From Rhodocollybia butyracea (Eukaryota > Basidiomycota > Agaricomycetes > Agaricales > Omphalotaceae), in assembly GCA_015501585.1 (NCBI GenBank), contig JADNRY010000091.1, forward strand, positions 124,001 to 188,000: 64,000 bases of DNA, read 5' to 3'. The translations under genes were made by a program, and so were the position numbers. Positions 5,095 through 15,145 of the stretch are shown here, in pieces (position 1 is the first letter of the stretch; every line of letters starts with the position of its first letter). The notes under the pieces are model-generated. The model was not told where the DNA came from and searched no databases. It was given only the letters and a program-made list of their open reading frames with translations.

Positions 5095-8000
5095 ATGGCT
5101 TCAAAAAGTAACTTTTCTACATTTGCAGCATCTCATCCCCAAGGAATGTTCTCGGGTGCACATGGTTTCCAGATATTTGGAAGCACATTTCAAGTCGTTT
5201 GCAATAATACATGTTTGTACTGTGCTTGGTACCGACTTTACTCGCTAGCTGACCGGCCGTGGCTTTCAAACATTTCCTTATGTTTGGAAAGTGGTATTTT
5301 CTTTAAATGAAGGTGCCATTTGGACAGTCACACGTTCCATAGATTCTTTGCTACGTCAAAGGGCGCTTGCTCTCTGGTCCCCCTGATTACTACACCGTTG
5401 GTTGTATCACACCAGGAAACCCTGGCGAGACTTCGCTTATTGTCCGAAGGTTTGGGAGGGAGGAAGACCGAGATTGTTTCGAAATGTGCCTACAAAAACA
5501 TGGGTAAGTTTTGAGTTCTCCGGAAGAAATCACACATGAAACCCTTTCTTTTTTAGATGGGCGACATTTACAATGAAACCACTAGGAAGACTCATTATAT
5601 TTGGGGACCCATGTCTAGTTGTATCTTCTGCAGGTACTACTAATCTATTTAACTGCCACGCTAAACTCTGATCAAGTAGGAAAAGCTTTGTACACATGGA
5701 AGGACATGATAGGGGTTCACAATGCAAGAAACGTATGGGAAAAGGGGTGCCAACTAGTGAGATTTAGATTTATGCTCCCGAGTTTGTGCGTCCTGACATG
5801 ATGATAAAGTTTCTTAAGGTTTCGGTATAGCAAGCATATCAGAGTGTATGGAGGTCAAACTAATCATGCTTTAGTCATTCTTCATGCAGAACCTAGAGAT
5901 TTATCCTGGAAAATGGGAGTGGAAGCTAATTTGGAATGGGGATGATTCATATGATAATGTGAAACTATTTGATTATGAGGGAAACCTTACGATGGACCTG
6001 GAATTGCTAGAGTCCTGTGGGCTGGTTTATCAAGACCGTTCACAATTTTTGGTATGAGTTGTGCTTTGCTGATCCCTCTGATCCTCATTTATATATGAAA
6101 AGAATAATAGCAACAACTTTTATTCCACTGCAAGAACATGGGTAGATGTGGTAACAACAAGATTGGGTAGGTGTGCATGTATCATGTGGCCAAGCTGTGT
6201 CAAGAGCGCATATTGGTTATAGGGAAAGTCAGTGTTGATAGATTGATATATGGTCATATAAAGGAAAAAGAAGTAAGCTGGACAAAAACATTTATACTGT
6301 CACAAAACTTAAGCTAATATATATCCTGCTACACCCTTCAGTTTGTGAGCTCCCTCCATTGGGCACATGCAGTCTTACTTCTAACGATCCACTAATTTCA
6401 TCCTTATCACTCGAGCTTGTGAGTTGTGAGCTCCTCTCAGCTGCCCAACAGCTGCCGCTAGTCTCCTAGTATTCCATTCACTTTACACCTTGTAGGATGT
6501 GAGTTCTTCTGCCTCTGTGCAGGATTTCATTTGCTTCAAGGGTGTCTTTACTAATGCAACTCTACACTGCTTAGATTGTGCGTCTGTCCATAGTACTCTA
6601 GTGTCTACCCTCCACTGACTTTTTTACCCTTCTGTTCATAAGGGTGTGGGTACTTCCACTGCTCCCCTTCAGTCTCTTCTCTGCTTGACAATTCTTACTG
6701 TACACTGTAGGATGTGAGATCTCTTTTTCACTCTCTATCAGCCTCTGCCTTCGAGTAATTTTCTTATCCCTCTCATGCTCTCCAGCTTGTGAGTCTGTCT
6801 CCCTCTTCCCGTCCCTCACTTTGCCCTCACTCACCCTCAGCCTTCCATACCTTTCAGGATGTGCGTGTTCACTACTTCAGTCACAGGCTCACACTCCTGC
6901 CTATTCTCATCCACATGCATCAGGATGTGAGTTCGGGGTCCAGACCTCCATTTATCATGATGGACTTATTTTATTCCTTCATGCTTGTCAGGTCGTGAGT
7001 ATTCCTAGCCCCATCCGAGTTTGTCTTAGGCTTCACCCCTTAACACACTTTAGCTTGTAAGTCAAGCTATGTGGCTTACTATGTTCTACTTCCACAAACT
7101 GTACCCCGACCCTCAGCGTGTGAGCTCTCTTTGCCTACCTTTAGTGATGTCTTACTTGATTTCTTCACTTCACCCTTCAGGATGTGAGTCTCCTCTGCCA
7201 CTTCCTTGCCACTGCCAGTCCCTTAGTATTTACTTATGTTCATTTCCTTTACATGCAGCTTGTGAGCAATACCAACCAGCCATGTCCAGTCATTTAGTTG
7301 TTTTTATTTCCTTCACATTTTTTAGCTTGTGAGTTTTCTACATAGTACAGATATGTTCCATTGAGTTTCATTTCCTTTGTATTCCGCAGGTTGTGAGTTT
7401 CTTGCCTTCTCCTTCCACTTTCATTTTGATGCATTCCAAATATCCAGCTTGTGAGATCCCTTGGGCCTTTAGCCACGTCTCTATAGTTATTGACTCCCCC
7501 CATCCACTGCTTCCAGGATGTGAGTTCCTCTTGGCCAAGTAATACAGTCTTCCACTTACTTAGTGTTGTGCCGGCTGGGGCCCGGCTCAGAAGCCCCGGC
7601 TACGGCTCAAAAGCCCCGGCCAGGGCTCGTCAAAAATCCGAGCCGGGCCCTAGCCCCCACGAAGGGCCGGCTCAAAGCCGGCTTAGGCTCAGGCCGGGGC
7701 CCAAGCGCTTAAGAGACATGTCTTGAGGCGCTAAGCTCCCTGTCCTCGGTGGACTCTACACCATGATACTTTTGGCTTTCTGGTTGCTTTCTGAGTGTGT
7801 GCAGGTTATACACCTGCTTTTTGAGATGATTTAAATCTGTAAGGCCAATTCAATACATTCATCAGATAGGTGGAACAAATTGTTTGACACTAATGGAGCC
7901 TTTTTTCAGCCTGGTTAATATTTCTGGAAACGATGAGTGTAAAATTGGGCATAAGTGATGATACATGTAGTGTAATTTTTGGTGTGCTGCTCTATGCTTC

Positions 8001-9697
8001 ATTAAGCGCTGAGCTCCGGCTCAGGCCCCGGCCCAGGGCTTTGAGAATTCTGAGCCGGGCCTTGAGCCCCCCTGAGCCCTATGACGGCTGGGGCTAGGCT
8101 AGGCTCAAAGACGGCCGGCTTTGGGGGCTCAACGGCCCTGAGCCGTAGCCGGCACATCACTACACTTACTTTCCTCCCCTCACACTGTTCAGATTGTGAG
8201 TCCTCTCAAGCATCTCTGATACACTGCAACATCTGCTGACTAGTGTTACCAATATGAAGGGCGTAAGTCTCCTCACCTGTCTCCTGCCTTTTGCTAACTA
8301 TCATGATCCCCTTACACTCTTTGGCAGGATGTGAGCTCCTCGTTTGTCAGCCATTACTAACACCTACTGACTACTATTGCCTTCTGATTGTCCAGCCTGT
8401 GAGCCCCTCCTCTTTGTGACTCCTAGTAGAATAACAACTTATGTTGCCTTGATATTCTCTAGGATGTAAGTCCACCCTAGCACCCCCCGGTTGATTACAT
8501 GTTTTTATTACTTTTCTTCAGGATGTGAGTCTGGCTTTCTCACATGCAGTCTCATGCTTCTACTGAAGGTTGTTCTCATTATGCTCTTCAGTTTGTAAGC
8601 TCCACTCAACTTCCTTCAGCTCCGATTTACTGCTCTGATATATCACACTCTCCAGGATGTGAGTCTTGGCCTTCTCTAATAGTATTTTACCGCTTTTTCC
8701 TTAATCTCCTGCAGCTTGCGAGTACCTTGCAGCTATTCCTAGTCCCCTAGCTGATCTCATTCCTTGCACACTGCTTAGCTTGTGAGTGCCTTCTATGTTG
8801 GGTCTTGTTGAGTCTTTTACATACCTGACCTTTAACCTTAGCTGGTGAGTTCTTAGTCACCTCAGTGTTTTACTTACTTCCATCAACTTTGAGATTTCCA
8901 GGATGTGAGTCTGTTCCTCCGCGTGACTTACTTACTTACACCATTTTTTGCAGCTGGTTGGTCCCTACTACCCCTCCAGTCTCTCACTCCTACTTATTTT
9001 CTCATCCAGGGTGTGAGTCATCCACCAACCCAGATTAAATATTTCACTCCTACTGATTGCTTTCCCTTTTTAATATTCCTTAGATTGTGAGGTCCTCCTT
9101 GTCCCTTTAATTATCTTATTTACTAACCTTATTTACCATTTTCATACATTTCAGCTTGTGGGTTCACTCAAGCATCACTTTCATCACATTTTATTTACAT
9201 AACAGGCTCTAGGATGTGAGTCTCTCTTGGAGCCTCTTTCCCCCCTCTAGTTATCTAGATTCTACTTGATTCCTCATGGTGCTCCTCAGGTTGTGAGTTT
9301 ATCTTGTCCATCACACGTCTCCCATATCCACTTAATTTAATGTCCTTTATGAGCTTGACAACACCCATGATGGCACCCGATTCCAGGAGATACCATTTGA
9401 TGAATCATCTGACATTGAGATGGAAAACTCACCTGATTATAAATGCAATGATTCCGACTTCATGGATGTTGATCAGCATATCACTATTAACTCTGGTAAG
9501 AAATCTAAACCTGCTTTCTTTTTCCAAAATTTGTTGTACTCAGTTGCATTCATTATCCAGCCTTGTGTTCCAAGAGTTACCATGCTCAGAGACAAAAATC
9601 TCCTATTTGGCCTTCAGGGAACATTTTTTGATGCAGGTGTTTTCCTGGTTATTTTCTGTGCCAATTTTTTTCAAAACCATTCACAGATCAAATTTGA
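5095..9697 (+). CDS. Unknown protein with a microexon array
   Basis: The function is not recognised. ATG 5095 sits in the strong context CTCTCCATGGCT and starts MASKSNFSTFAASH, then MFSGAHGFQIFGSTF, which recalls a short motif in many agaric signalling-type proteins. Proposed exons with matching phases: 5343-5503, 5557-5633, 5677-5732, 5768-5818, 5890-6051, 6103-6166 and 6205-6272. Then come 36 three-base exons (6342-9292), followed by 9354-9495, 9544-9636 and 9687-9697 (stop TGA). The join from the first exon to 5343 is not resolved. Exon text includes PPDYYTVGCITPGNPGE, NLEIYPGKWEWKLIWNGDD and, after the array, an acidic part (DESSDIEMENSPDY). The exon before the array ends in phase 0 and the one after begins in phase 0, so the array adds whole codons. 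Introns of 35, 38 and 43 nt in the model are short and need checking. A transposon-borne gene remains possible. Confidence 0.55.
6342..9292 (+). repeat. Array of 36 three-base microexons
   Basis: Thirty-six times the sequence reads pyrimidine-rich tract, AG, three bases, then a donor (mostly GTGAGT/C, some GTAAGT, one GCGAGT). The triplets begin at 6342, 6416, 6496, 6575, 6643, 6711, 6786, 6858, 6924, 6992, 7054, 7117, 7181, 7259, 7326, 7390, 7448, 7517, 8193, 8260, 8338, 8396, 8463, 8522, 8592, 8656, 8715, 8779, 8842, 8902, 8954, 9010, 9084, 9155, 9213 and 9290. Spacers are 49-77 nt and unlike each other, except the 18th, which carries a transposon and is 63 nt without it. No triplet is a stop. 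Units 1-18 would read FLDIGDLDDVLRDLLVLD. Units 19-36 would read IGDPDDFDLLLDLGILDV. Weakest units: 8260 (poor tract), 8715 (GC donor) and 8954 (donor GTTGGT). Confidence 0.65.
7561..8162. mobile_element. 602-bp GC-rich hAT-like element in an intron
   Basis: The ends are TAGTGTTGTGCCGGCT at the left and AGCCGGCACATCACTA at the right, an inverted repeat with one mismatch. An 8-bp duplication CACTTACT flanks it at 7553-7560 and 8163-8170. Both ends carry GC-rich subterminal repeats (GGCTCA, GCCCCGGC, GAGCCGGGCC), while the middle is AT-rich. There is no transposase. It sits between the 18th and 19th microexon of the host gene. Removing the element plus one duplication leaves an intron of 63 nt, within the range of its neighbours. 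Confidence 0.85.
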
Positions 9698-9926: not shown

Positions 9927-10616
9927 TAAAGATGTCCACGAGTCCGGGTCAAGTAGTACCCGGATCCGTTGCACGGGTACTCGTGGCCCTCAAGGGGCTA
10001 CCCGTGACCTGTATGTATCCGTGGGAAACGGATACCCGGATCCGCAGGTAGTTTAGCACAAGTACTTGCGGGTACTTGCGGATCCCAGCCAACACAGGTA
10101 CTCACAAGATACTTGTGAGTATCTGGAAGTATTTAGTACTTACAATAATAATAAAATGGTTACTACATGCAAGGTATGAGTGTGAGATACTCAGTAGGTG
10201 CCTAGTGCATAGAATAGAGCATGATGTAGGTAGAGAACAGTAGTCCTTGACTGATACAAGTCTAGAAGCTAAAGAGGGACTATATTCATTATAGTGTACT
10301 ATAGTGCATATAGCCACTTATAACTTGCTACATGCTAGGTGGACACATGAGCTGCTCAAACAAGGTCTATTGCATAGAGGAGAGCATATTTCATCCTTTA
10401 TTTGTGGGAAAAAAATATATTCTTGCCCTCCCACAAGGTCCTTTTGGCTTCTTGCAAGTACCTGCAAGTAGCTTAATTTTTATGAAGTGATACCCGTGAC
10501 CCGCTGTGATCCGTGGGAAACGGATACCCGGATCCGCGGGTAGTGATACCTGCGAGTATTCCCATGGCTCCTACCTGCGGGTACTTGGGTGGCACTTGGA
10601 CTCATGGACATCTTTA
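9927..10616. mobile_element. hAT-like element, GATGTCCACGAG family, copy 1
   Basis: The left end is TAAAGATGTCCACGAGTCC and the right end is the complement of TAAAGATGTCCATGAGTCC. The target duplication TACTTTAC lies at 9919-9926 and 10,617-10,624. Inside each end are short hairpins of the form TATCCGT-GGGAA-ACGGATA plus GATCCGC repeats, as in the copies at 15,361 and 23,702. No transposase is encoded. The 8-bp duplication supports the hAT superfamily. Confidence 0.85.
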
Positions 10617-10624
10617 TACTTTAC

Positions 10625-11529
10625 TGGGCAGCTGAAATACGACCTCTGTTATTAGTGTGAGATTCTATCATGAGGAGTCAGATGGCAAATCTTACACTAA
10701 TAAGGACCTCATCACTGCTCGGGACTGTATCCTCCAGAAAGATCAAGGGGGTCTGAAAAAAAAAAAATTTCATACTGGGGGTTGGAAAAATATTTTCAGC
10801 CTCGGGGATCGAACCAACCTAACCACCACGTGATTTTCCCCATATGGTAATTATGAGTAATATATTGAAGGTTGTGAAATACTTAGTGAATTATTGGTGG
10901 AATTTAAGTGCTCGCTAGTTGTGGGGGTAGTTCTTAATTATGTTGAACTGGGTCCCTTGAGCCTATATTTATAGGGATAAACTAGTACATGGGAAACTAC
11001 TTAATAAGCTTGCTGCGGAATGCTGCGGAATGACTGTGCATTGCTGCGCATGACTCTACATGACTAGATATGACTCAATATGACTTTACTTAACTAGCTA
11101 TGACTTATGTTGTAAGGCCCTTGGGCTGTGAAGCAAAGGGCCTGAGAGCGGGCTAGCTGATATAGCAAGATAAGAGCAGGTAAGGCTGAAAGCTTAGCTG
11201 ATAGCAGCTAAAAGAGTCCTTAAATCCTACCAAGTGCACACAACCCAATTCTATTGAGAGTACACATGAAGTGGCAGGAAGGAAAGGAACTAAAGATTAC
11301 ATAATAAGCGCTATTGATAATAACCAAAGCGGCGCCAATTCCGTAGCCGTTACATATGTCCAATGTATCAAATACCGTGAACCGAATATGAGTCATAATG
11401 ACTTGCCGTGACTCCACATGAGTTGATAGGATAGTTTCCGTTGATATTACAACATAATACTCTCTCCTAATTTTATGAGAGAACATACAAGCTACATAAG
11501 TAAGTAACACAAAACCAATTTCCGAAGTT
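10625..11529. other. Unassigned remnants, LTR-like and tRNA-like motifs
   Basis: A plus-strand stretch at about 10,645-10,757 reads openly (ISVRFYHEESDGKSYTNKDL), a possible orphan exon. On the minus strand at about 10,805-10,830, GGTTCGATCCC is a perfect tRNA-type B box, but no full tRNA folds around it. The segment 10,985-11,105 (repeated TGCGGAATG and ATGACT motifs, with a TATA-like run at about 10,962) resembles part of the solo LTR at 19,371-20,597. An 8-bp stem AGGCCCTT/AAGGGCCT lies at 11,115-11,143. A minus-strand open frame at 11,220-11,510 shows no known motif. Confidence 0.35.
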
Positions 11530-14500
11530 GTGACTTTGGAAGTTCAGTTTCCGTCTGGCGAGCTGCTACCTCTGGCATTTTATGTCACTTCTCTGGACTC
11601 ATCTTGTAAAGCTGTTTTAGGATACAGTTTCTTGTCCCACTACAATCCATTGATTGACTGGCTCACCAGAACCATTACTTTCCGTAACACCAAGCACTCT
11701 GTTTCCGCTCAGATGTCTTCGCTTTTCGGATCTGTGTTAGGACTGAAAGCACCGGTTTCCTCCTCAGAACCACCTACTATCCCGATTTCACCGGCACCTT
11801 CACCGCTGACTCAAACTCGCTCTCGCCAACCTCGTCCTCTATCGGACAGGTTTCTTTTCGAACCAATCTATTCCTACCCTTTGGTTGCGCAAACGGCTTT
11901 GCGTTTGGAGACTCCTGAAGTCGATATCGCATTAGTCGGCTGTAACGCCTCCGCCTCTCCATAATCACCACTGACTGTATCCAGCAATACGGTCATCCTA
12001 GACGCAGCCGATAGACCAAACGGTCTATCTGATTGTTCTATTTATTATTAATTATATAATAAATCTGTTACTATAAGTATCGTACAATTACTTAAGAGTC
12101 TAGTTAGTCTTTTATACCATCATACACACAATAGTATCCTATTTGTCGTGTTCACCGGTGTTCTTAAGGACTTTGCCCATAGGGCGCGTTATATTGGCGC
12201 CGCCGCCTTCCATAGGGCTTGTCAAGATTCAGGTAGGGAACCGACTCTTCTCCGGGTTATTGACCCCAAAGTGTCAGCACACTATGCAGCATCTGGTCCT
12301 TTGGCCAGGAGTTCTTCTTCCAAGGCACTTCCGATCCCTGCAGACTACCTTGACTTTGCCAATGTTTTCAATGAAGTCACGTCCGAGGTTCTTCCCAAAC
12401 ATTGTTCTTTTGACCTCAAGATTGATTTGGTAGAAGGTGCTGAGCCCCCGCTTGGTCGCCTTTACCCTCTCTCTCCAACAGAGCAGCAGGCTCTTTGCAA
12501 TTTCTTTGATAAGCAACTCGCTACCGGTGTCATTTGACCCTCATCCTCTTTGCATGGTGCTCTGGTCCTCTTTGTACCAAAGAAGGACGGTAAACTTTGG
12601 CTTTGTGTGGACTTCCGAGGATTAAACAAGATTACCAAGAAGGATTGCTACCCACTGCCTCTAATCTCGGACCTTTTGGATGCTCCAAAAAAAGCTAAAA
12701 TCTACACCAAACTTGACCTGGCTCACGCCTATCACCTCGTCCGAATTGCCGATGGCAACAAATGGAAAACTACCTTTCAGACCCGATGGGGTTCCTATGA
12801 ATGGTTATGCCCTTCGGTCTTACTAATGCCGCTCCCGCGGCTTTTCAAAGGTTCATGAACAACATATTCTCGGACATGCTCAATGTCTGCGTCATAGTTT
12901 ACGTGGACAACATCCTCATCTATTCCGACAATCCAGAACAGCACTTGGAACATGTTTGCAAAGTCCTTCGGTGGCTCCGTGCTAATGGCCTTTTTCTCAA
13001 TCCTGTGAAGTGCTTCTGGTTGGTCAATACGGTTGAATATCTTGGTTACATTCTCTCTATGGCAGGATTGACCATGGCAAAAGATAAGGTTAAAGCTATT
13101 GTTGACTGGCCGGTTCCTTGTAAAGTCAAAGACATCCAATCTTTTCTCGGTTTTGCTAATTTCTACCAATGTTTTATTTATAATTATAGTGACATCATCG
13201 TACTGATGACTCGGCTTCCCGGAAGGGTGTCGCATGGCTCTGGTCTTTGGCATGTCAGGATTTCTTTGAAGAACTCAAGTATGCCTTCACACATGCACCC
13301 ATTCTCACACATTGGGAACCAAATTGTCCACTTATCGTGGAAACCGATGCTTCTGACTATGCCTTAGCGGCTATCCTCTCAATCCAACTCTCAGATGGAG
13401 AAATCCATCCAATGGCTTTCCTCTCTCGGACCTTTCAGGCCGCCGAGCTTAGCTACGATACTCACAACAAAGAGCTCTTAGCCATTTTCAAGGCTTTTAA
13501 AGCCTGGCGGCACTACCTCGAAGGCTCTGGAGACCTGATTGATGTTGTTACCGATCACAAGAACCTTGAGTATTTTTCTACTACTAAGTACTAACTCGGC
13601 AACAGGTTCGGTGGTCTGAATACCTTCACACTTTTAACATGATCATTCAGTTCTGACCCAGAAAGCTTGGTGAGAAGCTGGACTCCATCACTAGACGTCC
13701 ATTCGGTCTTCCCTTTTGCTCAATCCTCAGGCAGTACAAGGTCTTGAGCTTGCAAAAGCTCCGACCGAGTCCCGATGGAAACTAGGTTCTGATGGTCTAT
13801 TACGATTAGACAATCAGATATTTGTTCCCGATCATTCTGATCTGCGACTTCAGGTTTTACAATACTTTCACAATCATCCTCTCTCTGGTCATTTCGGTCA
13901 AAACCAGACCCTAGAGGCTATCCAGCGCCAATACACTTGGCCCAAGATTCAGACCTTTGTCAGGGACTATGTTTCTTCTTGCACTGTATGCGGTCGAATT
14001 AAGTCTCGCCGACATCGGCCATACGGACTACTCAAACCTCTCCCGGTCCCGACTCAACCTTGGGATTCAATTTCTATGGATTTCATTGAACAACTTCTGG
14101 ACTCCGATGGCTACACCGCTATCTTGGTTATTGTGGATTGCAATTCAAAGCAAGCCATTTTTATTCCTACTTACGACACTATCACCTCTGAGCAAATTGC
14201 CAAGTTGTTTGTCTTGCATGTTTTCTCTAAGCACGGAGTTCCTTCACACATTACATTGGATCAAGGTTCCGAATTTGTGTCTGCATTTTTCCAAGCTCTT
14301 GGAGAAGCTCTCTCTATGACACTTCACTACACTTTGGGTTACCATCCGGAGGCCGATGGACAGACAGAACGAGTCAATCAGACTCTGGAGCAATACATTC
14401 AGATCTACTGTTCCTACCAGCAGGATGATTGGGCTAACTCTTGGCTATTCCGAGTTTGCTTACAACAATGCTCCAAATGCCTCAACCAGCATTTCTCCCT

Positions 14501-15145
14501 TCTTCGCTAACAAGGGCTATCATCCCAACATCACCATCTGTCCTGAGATCGACATTCGGTCCGATCTTGCACAAGATTTTGTGGTCAATCTAGATGAGCT
14601 TCATTTCTTCCTCCGAGATTAGATACTTAATGCACAAAAACACTATAAGGAACAAGCCAATCAGAAACGTATTCCTCATCCTGAATTTCCGATTGGATCT
14701 GAGGTCTTTGTTTTGGCAAAACACATCCAAACTACTTGGCTGACTGAGAAGTTTGCCAAAAAGTATCTTGGTCCTTTCAAGGTCCTTGAGCGCTCTGGCT
14801 CCCTTTCCTACAAGCTCCAACTGCTGAACTACCTTCGCCGAATCCATCCGGTTTTCCATGTATCACAACTTGAACCTTCAATTCTGAACTCGATTCCAAA
14901 TCGGATTCAGCCACCTCCCCCACCAATCGAAGTTGATGGTGAAGAAGAATACAATGTGGCAGAAATCTTCGACTCGAAGATCGACCAAAGATACAAACAC
15001 TGTCCTCTTTGATACTACATCCAATGGGCTGGTTATGAAGGAACCGACAACGAGTTTGCTTGGATTGCGGCTGACAAGCTACATGCCGATGAGCTAGTTC
15101 CAGCCTTCCACCTTTGGTATCCGAGCAAACCTGGACCTACTTAGT
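11530..15145 (+). mobile_element. Chromovirus (Ty3/gypsy) pol remnant, copy A
   Basis: Domains occur in the usual order in several frames. A retropepsin end comes first (LGYSFLSHYNPLIDW at about 11,612). Reverse transcriptase lies at 12,194-13,150, RNase H at about 13,247-13,590 (VETDASDYALAA) and integrase at 13,716-14,500 (His-His/Cys-Cys zinc region, then SMDFIEQL and DQGSEF). A chromodomain-like tail is at about 14,940-15,135 (YYIQWAGYEG). It belongs with the Tf1/Tf2-like chromodomain elements. It is inactive: TGA stops RT at 12,535-12,537, frameshifts separate RT, RNase H and integrase, and the YVDD box reads YVDN (12,900-12,911). A 253-bp repeat splits protease from RT. No gag or 5' LTR was found. 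Confidence 0.9.
11941..12193 (+). repeat. 253-bp repeat, copy 1
   Basis: This segment, starting TGTAACGCCTCCGCC and ending GGGCGCGTTATA, recurs in the opposite orientation at 28,264-28,515. It interrupts the retroelement between the codons for ..IALV and GAAAFHRACQ.., which are adjacent in related elements (recalled). Its first and last bases form a short imperfect inverted repeat (TGTAACGC/TATAACGC). A small palindrome TAGACC-AAAC-GGTCTA lies at about 12,015. No target duplication could be fixed. It is probably a miniature transposon. Confidence 0.6.

Follow-up and report, generated by a model that had tools for sequence, protein, structure and literature searches.

A candidate array of 36 one-codon exons in a duplicated gene of the basidiomycete Rhodocollybia butyracea

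The window analysed here is a stretch of 64,000 nucleotides from the genome of Rhodocollybia butyracea (GenBank assembly GCA_015501585.1, contig JADNRY010000091.1, positions 124,001 to 188,000 of the forward strand; coordinates below are those of the window unless another locus is named). Between two long exons of a gene on its + strand, at 6342–9292, lie 36 successive units, in each of which exactly three bases stand between AG and GT (GC in one). An earlier note, made from the sequence alone, had read these units as one-codon microexons, and every one of the 36 was recovered on the + strand. We confirm that the array is real, describe a paralogue in which the order of the triplets is kept, and weigh how the triplets are likely to be used.

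A tandem array of three-base units

Taken in order, the triplets encode FLDIGDLDDVLRDLLVLDIGDPDDFDLLLDLGILDV, with 12 Asp and 11 Leu among the 36 residues, just as had been counted before. The donors that follow them are GTGAG in 26 units, GTAAG in four, GTGCG and GTGGG in two each, and GTTGG and GCGAG in one each. Further AG-NNN-GT/GC matches occur between the units, and 36 is the count on a reading with one unit per intron-sized step. The introns measure 49–77 nt, the range that the earlier note had given for all of them, with the exception of intron 18, which is 673 nt long and holds an inserted element (Table 1). The inverted repeat of this element (7561–7581 and 8142–8162) is 86% complementary, and the element lies between two copies of CACTTACTT (7553–7561 and 8163–8171), a 9-bp target duplication; the segment 7553–8171 resembles what we take to be a small nonautonomous hAT-type element. 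Without the element, intron 18 measures 63 nt, so the insertion struck a unit that was already complete.

The motif AGNNTGTGAG occurs 28 times in the window as against 2.8 copies expected, a tenfold excess that was reached in none of 100 shuffles, and 24 of the 28 copies lie inside the array, every one on the + strand. This excess over shuffled sequence shows that the array is not a chance pattern. When exon lengths of 1–15 nt were scanned with GTRRG donors, clusters of at least three appeared inside the array at length 3 only, and the rest of the window held four small clusters of three (lengths 3, 5, 5 and 8). Left unspliced, the array contains 52, 45 and 47 stops in its three frames. The upstream exons (5095–6272), the 36 triplets and one downstream exon together form a single open frame of 331 codons, which runs through both flanks and bears out the phase 0 previously assigned to the long exons on either side. 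In the general sense of a microexon gene, namely several internal exons far below usual size and introns with splice signals, the array supplies 36 exons of 3 nt.

The gene model was drawn by eye and runs to 9495; the boundaries of its small exons are tentative, including those of the 2-nt exon at 5292–5293. The frames of exons 1 and 3 require an intervening exon of 2 nt (modulo 3), both here and in the paralogue described below, and fitting candidates are TG at 5292–5293 in the window and CC in the first intron of the paralogue. A Pfam search returned a single match below threshold (E 0.072; cut-off 25 bits) and no family above cut-off, and the one match in PDB, at E 0.63, was of no note. Searched against the protein collection, the full paralogue protein gave 2099 candidates, none at E ≤10, and a query of one exon gave no homologue.

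Table 1. Coordinates of the array, its flanking exons and the inserted element in the window
Feature	Coordinates	Strand	Details
Array of 36 three-base exons	6342–9292	+	First triplet TTT 6342–6344, last GTT 9290–9292
AG start positions of the units (each triplet starts 2 bases after its AG start)	6340, 6414, 6494, 6573, 6641, 6709, 6784, 6856, 6922, 6990, 7052, 7115, 7179, 7257, 7324, 7388, 7446, 7515, 8191, 8258, 8326, 8394, 8461, 8520, 8590, 8654, 8713, 8777, 8840, 8900, 8952, 9008, 9082, 9153, 9211, 9288	+	
Earlier exons, by-eye model	5095–6166	+	5095–5212, 5292–5293 (2 nt), 5343–5503, 5557–5633, 5680–5732, 5783–5824, 5875–6051, 6103–6166
Exon directly 5′ of array	6223–6272	+	Phase 0 end (..HIKEKE), donor GTAAGC; open frame; aligned with paralogue exon
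Intron leading to first triplet, 69 nt	6273–6341	+	Read from sequence
Inserted element in intron 18, about 600 bp (610 bp added to intron), inverted ends	7562–8162		Inverted repeat and target-site copies
Final array intron, 61 nt, acceptor GAG	9293–9353	+	Read from sequence
Long exon 3′ of array	9354–9495	+	Phase 0 start (LDNTHDGTRFQE..), donor GTAAGA; open frame; aligned with paralogue

A paralogue with a corresponding array

The genome searched comprises 95.6 Mb in 1381 contigs, the window belonging to contig C1283. Protein searches found the gene again on C515 (locus L015) and C764 (L014), along with two weak fragments. Between the copies on C515 and C764, none of 1056 exon sites and nine of 2297 intron sites differ; the two were treated as haplotypes and counted once. 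The two fragments, on C449 (E 0.0034, 36% identity, two stops) and C925 (E 0.074, 46% identity, one stop), were set aside, each being a short N-terminal-like stretch with no array. These two contigs, which both carry such a stretch of the gene's family, are near-identical where they were read (loci L056 and L057), and for some regions (C515/C764 and C449/C925) both haplotypes seem to be present in the assembly.

The spliced proteins of the window and L015 are identical at 152 of 319 residues (48%, BLASTP), and their alignment is ungapped across all 36 window triplet residues; homology of the earlier exons was assessed with a slightly earlier version of the gene model. The L015 array has 37 one-codon exons, in the same position and phase 0 as in the window, and its first triplet, GAA, pairs with the last codon of the window's pre-array exon. 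An AG-TCT-GC at L015 7094 was rejected as a unit, which takes the count from 38 to 37: it would give introns of 32 and 39 nt, the second of which would start right before a CTAAC branch-like site. Three units with weak donors were retained, at 5148 (GTAAAT), 6158 (GTCAGT) and 6576 (GTACTA). One donor differs between the haplotypes by a 4-base gap, with TTC/GTACTA at L015 6576 and TTC/GTAAGT at L014 6911, and one array intron of the C764 copy carries an insertion of ~365 bp with palindromic ends (L014 about 5811–6175, corresponding to L015 about 5840) that the C515 copy lacks. The predicted last exon of the paralogue encodes, as judged by eye, a terminal hydrophobic stretch that looks like a membrane anchor.

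Among the motif matches listed, array-like clusters were confined to these loci. The 97 matches to AGCTTGTGAGT formed such clusters on C515, C764 and the window's contig only, and the 76 matches to AGTTTGTGAGT on C515 and C764 only; for AGGATGTGAGT the list comprised the first 100 of 259 places. These searches reach arrays of this motif make-up. C735, C532 and C428, which neighbouring motif matches had put forward as further arrays, hold none, the pairs on C735 and C532 having been checked and rejected. Genome searches with the spliced proteins revealed no processed, intronless copy of the gene, and the matches that reached array residues all belonged to the known genes, as continuations of matches to their flanking exons.

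Conservation of the triplets

To compare the arrays, pairing was anchored at the 3′ end, so that window triplet i stands opposite L015 triplet i+1, 36 against 36 without a gap. Twelve of the 36 pairs are identical triplets, as compared with a mean of 4.6 when the window order was shuffled (100,000 shuffles; p about 1e-4), and this number is the same with or without the rejected unit at L015 7094. Identical residues number 13 of 36 (p about 6e-4); for the BLOSUM62 sum, p is 0.0015. Among the 14 offsets tried, none besides the favoured one exceeds six identical triplets. By contrast, the introns on the matching diagonal show no excess over other pairs (local excess −0.25, s.e. 0.37; 35 introns), and the lengths of paired introns are not correlated. 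Intron 18 was left out of the diagonal, pair-similarity and AG-depletion statistics, which leaves 35 introns, and was used minus its insertion in the length and branch-site statistics (36 introns).

The order and number of the triplets are thus kept, whereas the intron sequence is not, and translation of the triplets is the simplest explanation. Selection on the array triplets is well supported by this comparison, and their presence in the mRNA is likely. The earlier suggestion that one-codon exons add an Asp/Leu-rich segment to the protein is upheld as far as the order and number of the triplets go; their inclusion in the mRNA is what the paralogue suggests.

Codon composition

Across both copies, 63 of the 73 array triplets end in T, as against 31% and 27% of codons in the exons (about 29%); in the window the figure is 32 of 36. 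Paired triplets match at positions 1, 2 and 3 in 18, 17 and 28 of 36 cases, respectively, whereas over the 181 codons of the long exons the copies match at 70%, 82% and 53%, a pattern that is the usual mark of protein-level selection. All 21 Asp codons of the arrays are GAT, as compared with 13 GAT and 12 GAC in the exons. The third base, which adjoins the donor, may be held by a nucleotide or splicing constraint or may be a relic of the founding unit. A variant U1 was considered as the cause of T at this position, but no U1 of any kind was detected with the Rfam U1 model. No stop codon ends in T, so that the third-base T alone accounts for the missing stops: that none of the 36 triplets is a stop, which the earlier note had stated, is true but says little. 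Likewise, its Asp and Leu counts hold, with the composition being partly a by-product of the third-base T. The L015 segment is rich in Asp, Phe and Leu.

Introns and the origin of the array

The spacers carry several features of introns. Branch-like CTNAY sites are present in 27 of 36 window introns (16.9 in shuffled sequence) and in 31 of 37 L015 introns (17.6 shuffled), and the stricter CTRAY in 25 of 37 L015 introns (6.1 shuffled). In the last 25 nt 5′ of the acceptor, AG is depleted in both arrays: the 35 window introns have 7 as compared with 16.9 after shuffling, and the 37 L015 introns have 1 as compared with 17.1. In L015 the acceptor lies moderately far from the last AG upstream of it, at a median of 41 nt versus 33.8 in shuffled sequence. 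The L015 introns are mutually related, so their counts are not independent: the units of that array form one family with a 71-nt consensus and a mean pair score of +7.1, as compared with −2.3 for shuffled introns. The statement that the spacers share no sequence did not survive, as the window introns show a weak likeness among themselves and to the paralogue introns that lies above that of shuffled introns.

In L015 the likeness between introns is constant over all distances tested along the array. Where two units of that array share a triplet, the introns before them are slightly more alike (p 0.016), but those after them are not (p 0.197), a hint, if a faint one, of origin by duplication of units. 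A sequence model of the units gave 19 matches in the window at E ≤10, all within the array and on the + strand, seven of them with E <0.05; among the seven sources searched it matched only the arrays, with no match in four other loci. A genome-wide DNA search with the consensus and a 3-mismatch pattern found C515 and C764 only and no dispersed copies, its reach being short enough that it missed the window array too. The most economical origin would be local multiplication of an intron-plus-codon unit in the ancestor of both copies.

A three-base exon in a laccase gene

The N-terminal-like stretch on C449 sits upstream of a laccase gene, in which the exon ACC (L056 4421–4423) lies between introns of 58 and 55 nt. 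The best matches of a piece of this gene are laccases, a group with many basidiomycete members. With this exon, the laccase piece aligns ungapped to laccases in all five alignments shown, and 33 of the 57 matched PDB sequences span all 65 residues at equal length; when the exon is omitted, the conserved stretch is one residue short. Because the ACC exon lets the product align without a gap to solved laccases, the spliceosome of this fungus probably handles exons of 3 nt.

Other features of the window

Broken reading frames at about 11500–15012, taken from the list of open reading frames, resemble what we presume to be the pol region of a Ty3/gypsy-type retrotransposon. The segment at about 9930–10600 is, by eye, repetitive, with recurring ACCCGGATCCG-like and inverted motifs, and is perhaps another small mobile element.

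Discussion

We consider it quite probable that the window holds a tandem array of 36 one-codon exons that predates the duplication of its gene and that is normally spliced into the mRNA in full, as an ungapped segment. The unit would consist of one codon and an intron of about 64 nt, within a protein-coding gene that has no assigned family. The array and triplet order common to the window copy and the C515/C764 copy show that it is older than the duplication that gave rise to them, and it was probably built by local amplification of the intron-plus-codon unit. Judging by the conservation of the triplets, all of them would normally be spliced in, so that full inclusion would add 36 residues, rich in Asp and Leu, as an acidic-hydrophobic segment between the two long exons. 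Because an exon of 3 nt has no room for the complexes of both its splice sites at once, neighbouring introns would have to be removed consecutively, as has been proposed for plant microexons in the accessible part of PMC8831610; once one intron is out, the joined exon would present a normal upstream side to the next donor. Positions 1 and 2 of each codon would carry the coding information, and position 3 would be held at T via splicing or by descent. Occasional skipping would leave the frame intact, a possible reason for the persistence of such an array.

Several observations weigh against this interpretation. CTRAY sites are only modestly enriched in the window (12 of 36 introns versus 5.9 shuffled), the introns there are no different from shuffled sequence in how far the last upstream AG lies from the acceptor (median 31.5 versus 32.7), and a small number of donors are weak. 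A T at position −1 is an unusual donor context, and the 610-bp insertion in intron 18 could impair splicing of the window copy. The comparison of triplets is based on a single paralogue pair, and a homologue outside the source genome was not found in the protein collection. When the third base is left out, the match is less significant than for whole triplets (35 of 72 sites at bases 1 and 2 versus 24.3; p 0.007). Among 21 control trinucleotides around the triplet, identity reached p <0.05 at two (0.034, at the donor; 0.046), and matching sites did so at three (0.008; 0.023, at the donor; 0.049); none of these p values comes near 1e-4, and slight residual homology around the triplets is possible.

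The insertion in intron 18 bears also on the view that the array was functional in an ancestor and that correct splicing has since been lost in the window copy. The weaker branch sites of the window, introns that have diverged faster than those of L015, single odd donors and a gene end that is not resolved beyond 9495 would all suit such decay. Yet AG, three bases and GT or GC are intact in 36 of 36 units, the open frame from the upstream exons through the triplets into the next exon persists, and the codon-position pattern of the long exons fits protein-level selection, though it is common to both copies. We regard decay as unlikely.

A different use of intact units, raised in the earlier note as a source of very many isoforms, would be combinatorial, with regulated or random skipping of units producing segments of many different lengths. 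Each unit adds a whole codon and can be skipped in frame, and isoforms of human RPS24 do arise from three consecutive microexons, according to the accessible text of PMC11162997. However, the kept number and order of the triplets are equally expected under constitutive inclusion, no sequence sign of regulation turned up in an analysis not aimed at one, and we hold combinatorial use, on the sequence at hand, to be very unlikely. Its fullest form, in which a gene that builds a protein segment from one-codon exons would use regulated or stochastic skipping of these frame-neutral units to yield a very large family of variants in length and sequence, perhaps with dedicated recognition of the unusual T/GTGAG donors, seems to us distinctly unlikely.

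The earlier note had also offered the alternative of a ladder of splice sites, in which 6272 would be joined to 9354 by removal of one long intron, stepwise or whole, and the triplets would be absent from the mRNA. The flanks remain in phase 0 when the triplets are left out, so direct joining would keep the frame, and long introns of animals are removed via zero-nucleotide AG/GU relay sites (accessible part of PMC13149111). Here, three bases stand between AG and GT, and stepwise use would leave the triplets in; without the insertion the interval is about 2.5 kb, not long by animal standards. The order of the triplets, which the paralogue keeps although it does not keep the introns, would have no evident reason if they were never spliced in, and this disfavours the ladder, which we find highly doubtful. 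That the array is a noncoding tandem repeat within an intron, a conserved DNA motif unrelated to splicing, could draw on the repeat family formed by the L015 units, but branch-like sites, AG depletion, exact 3-base spacing, phase 0 flanks and order-specific conservation of the triplets are features of splicing and coding, and make it exceedingly improbable.

If transcripts confirm inclusion of the triplets, the locus would be the most extreme exon fragmentation that we have found: its 36 codons would be spread over as many exons, the 108 coding bases would come with about 2.3 kb of intron even when the inserted element is excluded, and the arrangement would have outlasted an old gene duplication. 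Such an array would offer a test bed for how the spliceosome acts on exons below its own footprint, for the order of intron removal, for junction accuracy across 36 similar junctions per RNA, and for local intron multiplication. The differences between C515 and C764 (one donor and one intron insertion) would serve as ready-made internal controls. A gene of this type is hardly predictable by annotation software.

Comparison with known systems

No array of one-codon exons, nor anything near this size, was found in the open-access literature, a search beyond whose reach most subscription papers lie; the papers below are cited for the parts of their text that are accessible. Families of similar introns multiply in fungal genomes as introner-like elements and stwintrons (PMC4457414, PMC12403724). 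Introner-like elements are near-identical introns dispersed in many genes, whereas the similar introns here are found in one array per gene only. A stwintron has an internal intron that splits a donor, branch site or acceptor, whereas in the array every unit brings a donor and an acceptor of its own, separated by a complete codon. Recursive splicing likewise removes intron pieces stepwise within one transcript, but its sites place AG directly on GU or use an RS-exon that is removed again (PMC13149111, PMC6224609); in none of the 36 units is AG adjacent to GT, three bases lying between them throughout.

Single exons of three bases or fewer can be spliced, in a fungus as well: a 1-nt exon occurs in Fusarium CYP621A (PMC12940212), 1-nt exons occur in plant APC11 and VPS55 (PMC8831610), and a 3-bp exon occurs in Drosophila homothorax (PMC7392893). 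Each of these stands alone in the accounts consulted and is not arrayed; two adjacent microexons are described in rice (PMC8831610). P450 genes of the basidiomycete Phanerochaete chrysosporium combine very short exons with introns of 45–55 bp, as the array does, but the shortest exon in the accessible text is 6 bp, and that text mentions no array of one-codon exons (PMC1184071). The microexon genes (MEGs) of Schistosoma mansoni have 10–20 short exons, mostly of 15 bp with a minimum of 6 bp (3 bp in the abstract), and introns of 0.1–5 kb (PMC10526429). They share with the array many successive short exons that are mostly multiples of three and can be skipped in frame; the array differs in having 36 exons all of 3 nt and introns of about 64 nt, and falls outside the MEG criterion of intron and exon size. 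In human RPS24, adjacent microexons of 3, 18 and 22 bp, including one of a single codon's length, are proven in RNA (PMC11162997); there, as described, the units are three and of differing length, whereas the array in R. butyracea comprises 36 units of one codon each.

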